Positions 2,924 to 62,387 of a DNA stretch of 64,000 bases are shown here, piece by piece. This DNA is from Rhodovastum atsumiense. Lineage in GTDB: Bacteria; Pseudomonadota; Alphaproteobacteria; Acetobacterales; Acetobacteraceae. Both the position numbers and the translations under genes were made by a program. Positions within the stretch are counted from its first letter, which is position 1. Every line of letters begins with the position of its first letter. The stretch spans positions 5,935,501 to 5,999,500 of the forward strand of contig NZ_OW485601.1 of NCBI RefSeq assembly GCF_937425535.1, read 5' to 3'. The notes under the pieces are model-generated. The model had not been told where the DNA came from. It did no database searches and saw only the letters and a program-made list of their open reading frames with translations.

Positions 2924-4614
<1,691 letters not shown>

Positions 4615-4655
4615 CCCGCTTCCTTCATCCGTGCCCATCCCAGAGGAGCGCAGCC

Positions 4656-6179
4656 ATGCGCATCGCCTTCGGCGGCTTTCAACACGAGACCAACACCTTC
4701 GCCCCGACCAAGGCCGATTTCGCGGCCTTCGAACATGGCGGCGGATGGCCGGGGCTGTGCCAGGGACCGGGGATCTTCGACGCGCTGGTTCCGACCGCCA
4801 ACATTCCCGGCGCCGGCTTCCTGGCGGCGGCGCGGCGTGCCGGGCATGAGATCGTCCCGACCTGCTGGGCCGCCGCGAGCCCTTCGGCGCACGTCACCCG
4901 TGATGCCTATGAGCGCATCGCCGGCGCCATCGTCGCCGGCATCCAGGCCGCCGGTGCGGTCGATGCGGTTTATCTTGACCTGCATGGCGCCATGGTGGCC
5001 GAGCATGCCGATGACGGCGAAGGCGAGATCCTCGCCCGCGTCCGCGCCGTGGTCGGCCCCGAGGTGCCGATCGTGGCGAGCCTCGACCTGCACGCCAACG
5101 TCACCGCGCGCATGCTGGAAGCGGCGGATGCGCTGACCGCCTTCCGCACCTACCCGCATGTCGACATGGCCGAGACCGGCGCGCGCGCGCTGCGCCTGAT
5201 CGAGGCACGCCACGCGCTCGGCCGGCGCTTCGCCGTTGCGGCGCGGCGCATCCCCTTCCTGATCCCGATCTGCTGGCAATGCACCGACGACGAACCGGCG
5301 CAGGGGCTGTACGCGAAGCTCGCCGCGATCGAGGCGGACACCGGCATCGCCGGGCTTTCCTTCACCATGGGCTTCCCGGCCGCCGATTTCCCCGAATGCA
5401 GCCCGGTGGTCTGGGCCTGCGGCGCGGATGCCGCCGCCGTCGAGGCCGCCGCCAGCGCGCTGGAAGCGGCCGTGCTTGCGGCCGAGTCCCGCTTCGCGGG
5501 CGATCTTCTCTCCGCCGAGGCCGCGGTGCGACAGGCGATGGCCGAGGCCGCGCAAGGACTCCGGCCGATCGTCATCGCCGATGCCCAGGACAATCCCGGC
5601 GCGGGCGGCAATTCCGACACCACCGGCCTGTTGCGCGCCCTGGTCGCGGCCAAGGTGCGCAACGCGGCACTCGGGCTGATGGTCGACCCGGCTGCTGCCG
5701 CCGCCGCCCATGCGGCCGGTGAAGGCGCCACCATCCGGCTCACGCTCGGCGGCTGTTCCGATGTGGAAGGCGATGCGCCCTTCGAACTCGACGTGGTGGT
5801 GGAAAAGCTTTCGGACGGCCGCTGCCAGACCACCGGTCCCTATTACGGCGCGCGCGAGATGGATCTCGGCCCGAGCGCCTGCCTGCGGCACGACGGAGTG
5901 CGCGTGGTGGTGGCCAGCCATAAGGCGCAGTTGGCCGATCAGGCGATGTTCCGCTTCGTCGGCATCGAGCCGACCACGGCGGATGTGCTGGTGGTCAAGA
6001 GCACGATCCATTTCCGCGCCGATTTCCGGCAGATCGCCGGCCGGATCATCACCGCCGTCGCCCCCGGACCGATGTTCATGCTGGCGACCGACCGCGTCTG
6101 GAAAAACCTTCCGGACGAATTGCGCATGCTGCCCGGCGGGCCGCGTTTCGCCGAGGTCGCCGCGACGACGCGGCGCTGA
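4656..6179 (+). CDS. M81 family metallopeptidase (MlrC-like)
   Basis: Putative zinc hydrolase of 507 residues in the family named after MlrC, which finishes linear microcystin degradation. The N-terminus MRIAFGGFQHETNTF is the family's opening block, with conserved histidine and glutamate. YLDLHGAM, LDLHANVT and TYPHVDMAETG carry further conserved Asp/His residues expected to bind metal, and the C-terminal half has the usual DNPGAGGNSDTT motif. The start at 4656 follows GAGGAG by 7 nt. It lies 41 bp after the ATPase gene, so it belongs to the transporter operon. MlrC relatives occur in many bacteria that never meet microcystin, so the real substrate is unknown; an imported peptide or amide is a reasonable inference. 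Confidence 0.9.
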   Translation: MRIAFGGFQHETNTFAPTKADFAAFEHGGGWPGLCQGPGIFDALVPTANIPGAGFLAAARRAGHEIVPTCWAAASPSAHVTRDAYERIAGAIVAGIQAAGAVDAVYLDLHGAMVAEHADDGEGEILARVRAVVGPEVPIVASLDLHANVTARMLEAADALTAFRTYPHVDMAETGARALRLIEARHALGRRFAVAARRIPFLIPICWQCTDDEPAQGLYAKLAAIEADTGIAGLSFTMGFPAADFPECSPVVWACGADAAAVEAAASALEAAVLAAESRFAGDLLSAEAAVRQAMAEAAQGLRPIVIADAQDNPGAGGNSDTTGLLRALVAAKVRNAALGLMVDPAAAAAAHAAGEGATIRLTLGGCSDVEGDAPFELDVVVEKLSDGRCQTTGPYYGAREMDLGPSACLRHDGVRVVVASHKAQLADQAMFRFVGIEPTTADVLVVKSTIHFRADFRQIAGRIITAVAPGPMFMLATDRVWKNLPDELRMLPGGPRFAEVAATTRR

Positions 6180-60463: not shown

Positions 60464-60550
60464 GGCCCTCTGTCGGAACTGGTAGACGAACGCGACTCAA
60501 AATCGCGCGCCTTTGCGGGCGTCCCGGTTCGAATCCGGGGAGGGCCACCA
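60464..60550 (+). tRNA. tRNA-Leu (anticodon CAA)
   Basis: Class II tRNA of 87 nt. Acceptor GGCCCTC pairs with GAGGGCC, followed by A and an encoded CCA. Anticodon stem CGCGA/TCGCG with loop CTCAAAA, anticodon CAA at 60498-60500. A long variable arm (GCCTTTGCGGGC) and T arm CCCGG-TTCGAAT-CCGGG are present. Confidence 0.96.
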
Positions 60551-61806: not shown

Positions 61807-62014
61807 GCGGCAGGTCCTGGACGGAGGTGGCCTCCCCCGATAGCGGGACCGTCCTAACCAGGCAAGACGAGGCCCAGCCTGCCTGCCATGGCAGGCGGTG
61901 CAGAGTCGCGAACAGCCCGGTTGATCGGCTCGGTGCGCCGGTCTGCCCCGCGCCGTCCGGCTGAAATCTCCCTGTTGACCGCGTCCGCCGGGCCAACTAA
62001 ACACCCGCCCATGG

Positions 62015-62336
62015 TCGGGCGTAGCTCAGCGGTAGAGCAATCGGCTGTTAAATTTTTGACACTTCAGAGGGAGACCTCAGTCGAAAATCGGGTGAATTCG
62101 GTGGAACCCCACCGTCGCGAGACGAGGGCAACGCCGAGCCAAGCCAGACGAAGGGCATAAAGGTCGTCTGGAAGGTGTAGAGACTAGGCGGTGAGGAGCC
62201 CATCCAATAACCCGCCCACGAGCGCCCGACACCCTAACGGTCACGCCGAGGGTGAAGACATAGTCCGGCACCGCGAGGAATCGCGGCAACAGACCGAACC
62301 GATTGGTCGTAGGTTCGAATCCTACCGCCCGAGCCA
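62015..62336 (+). tRNA. tRNA-Asn (anticodon GTT), interrupted by a group I intron
   Basis: Exon 1 is 62015-62049 and exon 2 is 62297-62336; joined they give a 75-nt tRNA. Acceptor TCGGGCG/CGCCCGA, discriminator G, encoded CCA; D arm GCTC/GAGC; anticodon stem ATCGG/CCGAT with loop CTGTTAA; T arm GTAGG-TTCGAAT-CCTAC. The anticodon GTT is 62047-62049, so the split is directly after it (between positions 36 and 37). Unspliced, the anticodon stem is separated by 247 nt and the tRNA cannot be charged. A perfect terminator follows. Confidence 0.95.
62050..62296 (+). ncRNA. Group I self-splicing intron (IC3-like, 247 nt)
   Basis: Conserved core strings match those I know from bacterial tRNA introns such as Azoarcus tRNA-Ile: GGCAACGCCGAGCCAAG (62127-62143, P4-Q region), GTGTAGAGACTA (R, 62175-62186) and AAGACATAGTCC (S, 62255-62266). 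P7 pairs GACTA with TAGTC. P1 pairs exon TGTT with GACA at 62058-62061, giving the required U-G wobble at the splice site; AAA/TTT extends it. Other helices: P2 GAGG/CCTC with a GAGA loop, P4 CGGTG/CGCCG, P8 CACCCT/AGGGTG, P9 CCGCGA/TCGCGG with a GGAA loop. The last intron base is G (62296). There is no homing endonuclease frame. Confidence 0.93.
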
Positions 62337-62342
62337 TTATGA

Positions 62343-62387
62343 TGCGGCGCCGCTCCAGACTGACGGAGCGGCGCCGCAATCGTTTTT
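62343..62387 (+). terminator. Rho-independent terminator of tRNA-Asn
   Basis: Perfect 14-bp stem TGCGGCGCCGCTCC/GGAGCGGCGCCGCA with an 8-nt loop, then ATCGTTTTT. It starts 7 bp after the tRNA 3' end and may also stop the convergent gene at 62391. Confidence 0.92.

Follow-up and report, generated by a model that had tools for sequence, protein, structure and literature searches.

How does a bacterium read its asparagine codons when the only gene that can be detected for the corresponding tRNA is interrupted in its anticodon loop? This question is raised by a locus of Rhodovastum atsumiense, at 62015-62336 of the window, by which we mean the whole stretch of 64,000 nucleotides that was analysed. 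An earlier note, made from the letters alone, had claimed that a complete tRNA-Asn appears there only upon removal of 247 nt, and this holds: the features lie where they had been placed, and ARAGORN in intron mode calls a tRNA-Asn(gtt) of 322 nt with an insert i(36,247). When the two exons are joined and run by themselves, ARAGORN again calls a tRNA-Asn; they make a gene of 75 nt including CCA, which, once the insert is removed, has the cloverleaf and the GUU of a bacterial tRNA-Asn(GUU). The borders agree as well: the break follows the anticodon, the final U of exon 1 is paired with the G of GACA, and the intron ends in G. It had also been foreseen that an intron-unaware finder would overlook the gene; default ARAGORN, which allows no introns, indeed returns no tRNA at these positions, whereas its intron mode does. 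Intron-unaware tRNA finders can, in other words, make genomes look devoid of tRNA-Asn.

The features of the locus and of its relatives are collected in Table 1. A consensus scan for a sigma-70 site upstream of tRNA-Asn found none. The core of the promoter-like element, TTGACC-N17-TA, is recognized by eye in eight of nine Rhodopila-type upstream regions (G406 is the exception) and in none of five same-genus ones.

Table 1. Positions of the tRNA-Asn gene, its intron and flanking elements in the window, and of related loci elsewhere
Feature	Position	Strand	Basis or remark
Promoter-like element TTGACC-17 nt-TAAACA preceding tRNA-Asn	61975-62003	+	by eye
tRNA-Asn(GUU) exon 1, last base anticodon U36	62015-62049	+	ARAGORN, intron mode
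P1: exon UGUU (62046-62049) with internal guide GACA (62058-62061), U.G at splice site	62046-62061	+	four pairs kept in 8/8
Group I intron, 247 nt, IA-type (P7.1/P7.2)	62050-62296	+	RF00028, ARAGORN borders, structure, covariation, tree
P7 (62182-62186/62261-62265); P7.1 (62187-62191/62212-62216) and P7.2 (62195-62197/62203-62205), between P7 and P3	62182-62265	+	
tRNA-Asn exon 2, encoded CCA	62297-62336	+	ARAGORN
Intrinsic terminator-like hairpin, 14 pairs, then T run	62343-62378	+	computed on sequence
Island bounded by tRNA-Asn 3'-part repeat, beside tyrosine integrase gene	L126 5941-7395		
Island bounded by tRNA-Asn 3'-part repeat, beside tyrosine integrase gene	L128 4773-6195		
Klebsiella jumbo phage, intron-bearing CAU tRNA (L134)	OU509535.1 334381-336541		record without any annotation
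Klebsiella jumbo phage Muenster, intron-bearing CAU tRNA (L135)	MT708547.1 301871-303997		unannotated

Nature of the insert: a group I intron

What, then, is the insert? The covariance model RF00028, with which the earlier note had proposed to check it, matches 62040-62287 over its full length (model positions 1-253) with 78.5 bits, above the gathering score of 50, and an E-value of 1.8e-19; elsewhere in the genome of 7,423,543 bases no further match is reported. This confirms that the anticodon loop of tRNA-Asn(GUU) houses a group I intron. The P/Q/R/S core, P7 and GNRA-capped helices that had been described can be retraced as a P3-P8 core, P7 and GNRA-type loops, the last read by eye as GAGA in P2, GCGA in P5 and GGAA in P9. 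P7 and the U.G at the 5' splice site are invariant in all eight sequences compared and the terminal G is present, as is proper to a group I intron. The minimum-energy fold of the pre-tRNA beats all 100 shuffles (z -3.58).

The covariation points the same way. Helices P1-P9 were placed on the window and counted over it and seven relatives, eight sequences in all; this alignment (A1) omits L050, the exon 1 of which is cut by a contig end, and L074, the tRNA region of which looks identical to that of L072. Standard pairs fill 91.8% of 538 cells, against 81.9% after shuffling; two-sided changes are found at 28 of the 69 pairs (13.8 in shuffles) and, counted by cell, 58 times (17.3), and the covariation score is 0.361 (0.177). 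None of the 500 shuffles reaches any of these four values. The fifth measure, further pair types, is unexceptional (51 versus 47.7, reached by 75 of the 500), and slid-partner controls give 3-9 pairs with two-sided change. Two of the four P1 pairs are kept via two-sided changes in two CAU tRNAs of phages. P7.1 and P7.2 are paired in 82.5% and 79.2% of cells, with two-sided changes at 2/5 and 1/3 of their pairs. A second alignment of nine sequences, with L050 added, has weak spots: P9 forms 3/6 pairs in L072 and 4/6 in L134; P7.1 and P7.2 form 2/5 and 2/3 in the Klebsiella phages, and 2/5 and 0/3 in L050, which is also poor for P1 and P2; and in L072 and L134 the columns of the anticodon stem are out of register. 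Since P7.1 of the Klebsiella phages counts 2/5 in one alignment and 4/5 in another, its pairing depends on the alignment.

The only detectable tRNA-Asn gene

Does the cell possess another gene for this tRNA? The assembly (7.42 Mb) consists of nine contigs and is rated 100% complete. RF00005 finds 48 tRNAs in it, and the anticodons of all 48 were read: the other 19 amino acids are represented, and GUU/Asn is not among them. A pattern for intact tRNA-Asn has 0 matches in this genome, and blastn of the gene against it returns the gene itself only. The impression of a genome without tRNA-Asn, which the earlier note had anticipated, is borne out, and the search for another tRNA-Asn(GTT) that it advised, made in these three ways, found none. 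The locus is the only detectable tRNA-Asn gene of this bacterium, where "sole" rests on three partial searches of a nine-contig assembly, because the RF00005 scan is not exhaustive: the tRNA-Leu(CAA) of the window, at 60464-60550, is missing from its table. By eye, this tRNA-Leu is nearer to copies of the Rhodopila group (L131, L133) than to those of its genus. In genomes G006 and G394, no tRNA-Asn was found by pattern or blastn.

How would the transcript of this gene be matured? Its anatomy suggests the following course: U33 and the anticodon (UGUU) would pair with the guide GACA, and a guanosine bound in P7 would attack after U36; the freed U36 would then attack after the terminal G62296, aided by a P10 of exon AA with intron UU, and the joining of the exons would restore the anticodon loop CUGUUAA. 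Decoding of every Asn codon in the cell would hinge on this reaction. It can be held with high confidence that the sole detectable gene of tRNA-Asn(GUU) would be matured by group I self-splicing along these lines, and the intron is very probably functional. If so, the sole detectable asparagine tRNA of a cell depends on a ribozyme of a phage-like type.

Could a protein, the splicing endonuclease that acts on tRNA introns of archaea and eukaryotes, cut out the insert instead? Its position in the host is close to the canonical archaeal tRNA intron site. Nevertheless, the full group I core with its covariation, the U.G, the terminal G and the RF00028 score all speak for a ribozyme, and a splicing endonuclease of the archaeal or eukaryal type is not known from bacteria; this explanation has virtually no chance of being right. 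Slightly less remote, and still very improbable, is that the interrupted gene has decayed or fallen silent and that an intact tRNA-Asn escaped the searches or lies in a gap of the assembly. The number of contigs and the incomplete tRNA scan would leave room for such a gene, and one of the two copies in an uncultured Rhodopila (G423, locus L070) breaks off in the T loop, which tells that such copies can decay. However, the exons of the window are identical to the intact genes of G334, G352, G184, G406 and G010 (75/75), all core pairs are formed in its intron, a terminator-like hairpin follows the gene, the assembly is rated as 100% complete, and three other intron-bearing genomes are also without a detected intact copy. 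The reading retained here is that of a working gene that would splice itself.

Relatives and history

Where else does the intron occur? A pattern made of tRNA-Asn exon 1 and the intron P element finds three contigs in a collection of 84,980 species (to which the R. atsumiense genome possibly does not belong), all from "uncultured Rhodopila sp."; in 397 genomes of the family it has two matches, R. atsumiense itself and G418. With three contigs in such a collection, the suggestion that tRNA-Asn is an under-described insertion site was a fair one. In the portions of the literature available, tRNA-Asn is not named as a bacterial host of group I introns, and a literature search combining Alphaproteobacteria with the anticodon loop found no paper. 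The three uncultured Rhodopila genomes (G418/G422, G421, G423) carry the same intron at the same site, identical to that of the window in 214-217 of 249 columns; the intact tRNA-Asn pattern has 0 matches in them, and blastn finds no intact gene in G418, G421 and G423. The two copies of G423, one complete and one broken off, share a contig of 5.9 kb, on which they stand in opposite orientation (4612-4915 and 5396-5714); one of them ends after the TTCG of the T loop, and the exon of L050 ends likewise. Intact tRNA-Asn is found by pattern in five of six other same-genus genomes, and contiguous exons by blastn in 10 of 12 sampled genomes of g123, taken here as the Rhodopila group.

The exons bear on the history of the gene. 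Those of the window are identical (75/75) to the exons of six Rhodopila-group genomes, namely G334, G352, G184, G406, G418 and G421, and match G290 at 73/75 and the complete copy of G423 at 71/75; the tRNA-Asn genes of five same-genus genomes agree at only 62-63 of 76 positions. Because the exons equal those of Rhodopila and not those of its own genus, a transfer of the whole gene is likely, if not proven: a Rhodopila-type tRNA-Asn gene would have moved, with its intron, into the lineage of the window. Seventy-five nucleotides are a weak clock for such an event.

Alternatively, only the intron may have arrived, or arisen, in place, in exons of the TCGGGCG type that were already present by descent; a group I intron can move by homing and leave its flanks behind. 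Of 29 family genomes with a match, one, G010 of another genus, shows the tRNA body of the window, and its gene is intronless and identical (75/75). Furthermore, metZ, which lies 1.6 kb from tRNA-Asn in the window, is found within about 2 kb of it in the same-genus G003, G004 and G005 as well, so that its surroundings are those also met in the genus. The identity of metZ to that of the window is 77-89% in the genus, 80-84% in the Rhodopila group and 89% in the fragment of G010 (189 aa); metZ thus fails to part the groups cleanly and is no clear support for the transfer, and the second marker, serA, has a relative in one of 14 genomes only, G004 (78%). Against an arrival in place stand the 13-14 differences from five same-genus genes, with none from the six Rhodopila-group ones, and the 60 bases upstream, which are like those of the intron-bearing G418 and G421 (z 4.7 and 5.2) and unlike those of G010 (z 0.5); this likeness is uneven, and the other values are 3.8 for the broken and 1.0 for the complete copy of G423, -0.8 to 2.9 for the genus, and 5.1 and 0.8 for the intronless G352 and G406. 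All considered, an arrival in place is unlikely, albeit a serious competitor, and decidedly more plausible than the inheritance of the intron from an ancestor of the family with loss in most lineages. The latter would suit an intron that two genera of the family share in site and type, but only 2 of the 397 family genomes have the pattern, R. atsumiense included, 10 of the 12 sampled g123 genomes are intronless by blastn, and many losses would be required, which makes it improbable. Transfer of the whole gene remains the preferred reading.

Outside the family, the closest relatives found are introns of viral tRNA-Asn genes and of CAU tRNAs of Klebsiella jumbo phages. Four IMG/VR contigs (L071-L074) have an intron after the anticodon of a presumed tRNA-Asn, and a second pattern finds the same four. 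Of these, ARAGORN names only L073 tRNA-Asn; the hosts that it gives for L071, L072 and L074 are unfit for the exons and were reread as Asn, just as those of L060, L063, L064 and L067 were reread as Arg(UCU). A further tRNA-Asn is called in each of L072 and L074. In the tree, the intron of L072 is of the window's type, and those of L071 and L073 group with the IC3-like ones: the viral presumed tRNA-Asn genes hold two intron types at one site.

In the two Klebsiella jumbo phages, a CAU tRNA carries an intron of the window's type, with RF00028 scores of 89.9 and 104.1 bits. These introns are homologous to that of the window and, by alignment, sit at the same position after U36; ARAGORN puts the intron of L134 one base later, i(37,228), and leaves the tRNA of L135 uncalled, its host being read by eye. 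P1 joins UCAU with GUGA in the phage CAU tRNAs and UGUU with GACA in the window. With GACA for GUU, GUGA for CAU and the U.G kept in 8/8, the guide follows the anticodon, a concrete case of how an intron can change hosts. A phage record of 735 kb (L136, LR756501.1 189334-191452) has a group I intron in tRNA-Leu(UAA).

An endonuclease-like gene lies within about 0.3 kb of all five viral introns examined (L071, L072, L073, L134, L135). The neighbour of L134 matches HNH_3 (5.5e-19); those of L072 and L071 match PHROGs HNH (3.1e-38 and 5.4e-26), with nothing over the cut-off against Pfam HNH; that of L135 is an endonuclease by annotation, with NUMOD3, and that of L073 has a weak match only (8.7e-5). 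These neighbours can be regarded as proven or probable endonuclease genes. The intron family also resides in tRNA genes of phages, and a free-standing endonuclease gene is often found alongside. The window is unlike the Klebsiella phages, where the HNH-type gene is close by: the endonuclease of a homing intron is seen neither among the five neighbours scanned with Pfam nor, by eye, among the ORFs at 56-64 kb, and the intron is too short to hold such a gene. In the Rhodopila flanks, the one ORF scanned is a resolvase, 0.75 kb from the gene of L130.

Searched alone against annotated phages, the intron has one partial match of 26%, which is flanked by fragments of a ribonucleoside reductase gene of a Rhizobium phage. 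Matches in Pelagibacter, Vibrio and marine phages were rejected, as the fragments on either side of them are annotated as capsid or terminase genes and they are not in tRNAs. Distant blastn against plasmids gave no match, and a spacer pattern has none within the window.

A 2014 review states, in the part available, that all phage introns observed to date are in protein-coding genes (PMC3984707). A search of the literature, accessible in part, turned up no report of a group I intron from a phage tRNA, which does not prove that none exists; one phage paper predicts, in its accessible portion, a tRNA-Ser intron of 58 bp, which is below the size of a group I intron. The window intron is related, by alignment and tree, to introns of phage tRNA genes, and a bacterial tRNA intron is thereby tied to genes where that review reported none. 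Did it pass from phage to bacterium? With a tree rooted at its midpoint only, the odds for this direction are about even.

Why would such an intron be kept? In the intronless G334 and G352, the 3' part of tRNA-Asn, with the 40 nt of exon 2, is repeated 17.8 and 9.1 kb away (53 and 55 bp, hand-counted) and adjoins a tyrosine integrase gene with an Arm-DNA-bind_3 domain. The repeat spans from near the anticodon stem to CCA, and the insertion point of the intron lies inside it. In these two genomes of the Rhodopila group, tRNA-Asn is an integrase attachment site, one that the intron interrupts, and this motivates the idea of a shield: a phage-borne family might switch between tRNAs by adapting its guide to each anticodon, and be kept in bacterial tRNA-Asn as a breaker of the site used by tyrosine integrases in intronless relatives, which would protect the sole gene from genomic islands. 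The idea is speculative, and we think it doubtful. A full second copy of exon 2 occurs in 2/10 intronless g123 genomes and 0/4 intron-bearing ones, a difference that is not significant, and missing islands were set aside as proof of protection. A literature search for group I introns together with integrase and attachment site found no paper. With this locus, a block of island integration by an intron within a tRNA gene becomes testable.

Intron type and known systems

Which kind of group I intron is it? The window has the P7.1/P7.2 extension between P7 and P3 that marks IA (IA2-like) introns; IC3 introns, the clade of the Leu/Arg tRNA introns, have no such extension. The spacing from P7 to P7' is 68-77 nt in eight related introns versus 41-54 in 15 IC3-like ones, by a script that misplaced the window's own motif match and gave no distance for four Arg(UCU) introns. 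A midpoint-rooted tree of 28 introns over 202 columns, with L053 and L074 left out, has two groups with support 99 each, and the window clusters with the Rhodopila copies (Asn clade, 93). The intron belongs to the phage-like, IA-type group; the assignment is structural, by P7.1/P7.2 together with the tree, which holds no reference IA2 or IC3 sequence. The IC3 subtype is ruled out by the extension and by the separate clade. What goes beyond the earlier note is the phage-like IA type, the existence of sister copies and of copies in viral tRNA-Asn, and the likely horizontal origin.

Among sampled relatives, 16 of 60 genomes (R. atsumiense included) have RF00028 matches, five over the cut-off, and the hosts that ARAGORN names for these introns include Arg(CCU), Leu(UAA), Thr(GGU) and Leu(UAG). 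Four same-genus genomes (L060, L063, L064, L067) have an IC3-like intron in a presumed tRNA-Arg(UCU), read by eye; the Arg(UCU) gene of R. atsumiense (L009) is intact. At the tRNA-Thr(GGU) locus L057, exon 1 is apparently duplicated upstream of the intron-bearing gene. In bacteria, IC3 introns have tRNA-Leu(UAA) and tRNA-Arg(CCU) as hosts.

How does the locus compare with known systems? With the IC3 pre-tRNA introns of Azoarcus (tRNA-Ile) and Synechococcus it shares a group I ribozyme in a tRNA anticodon loop; it differs in its host, tRNA-Asn, and in P7.1/P7.2, the two being set apart by their description and through IC3-like introns rather than by alignment. IC3-type tRNA introns likewise leave genomes seemingly without a tRNA, according to the available part of the tRNAscan-SE 2.0 paper. 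The cyanobacterial tRNA-fMet introns (Synechocystis), likened here by description and not by sequence, share the anticodon-loop host and, in the portions of text available, a link to mobility, the Synechocystis intron being accompanied by an anticodon-specific endonuclease; the host tRNA differs. The available part of a paper on cyanobacterial tRNAs adds Arg, Gly and Lys to the hosts.

The likeness to phage IA2 introns, T4 td and its kin, lies in P7.1/P7.2 between P7 and P3, in the phage relatives and in the endonuclease genes near viral copies of the family; the difference is that the window's family is inserted in tRNA genes, td being likened by description only. The td ribozyme resembles those of Azoarcus and Synechococcus save for P7.1/7.2 between P7 and P3 (PMC4498298, available part), and over half of the viral group I introns are IA2, as given in the accessible part of the group I intron database (2025). 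Taken together, the locus combines a known mechanism with an unusual host and type, and with a likely horizontal, phage-linked history.
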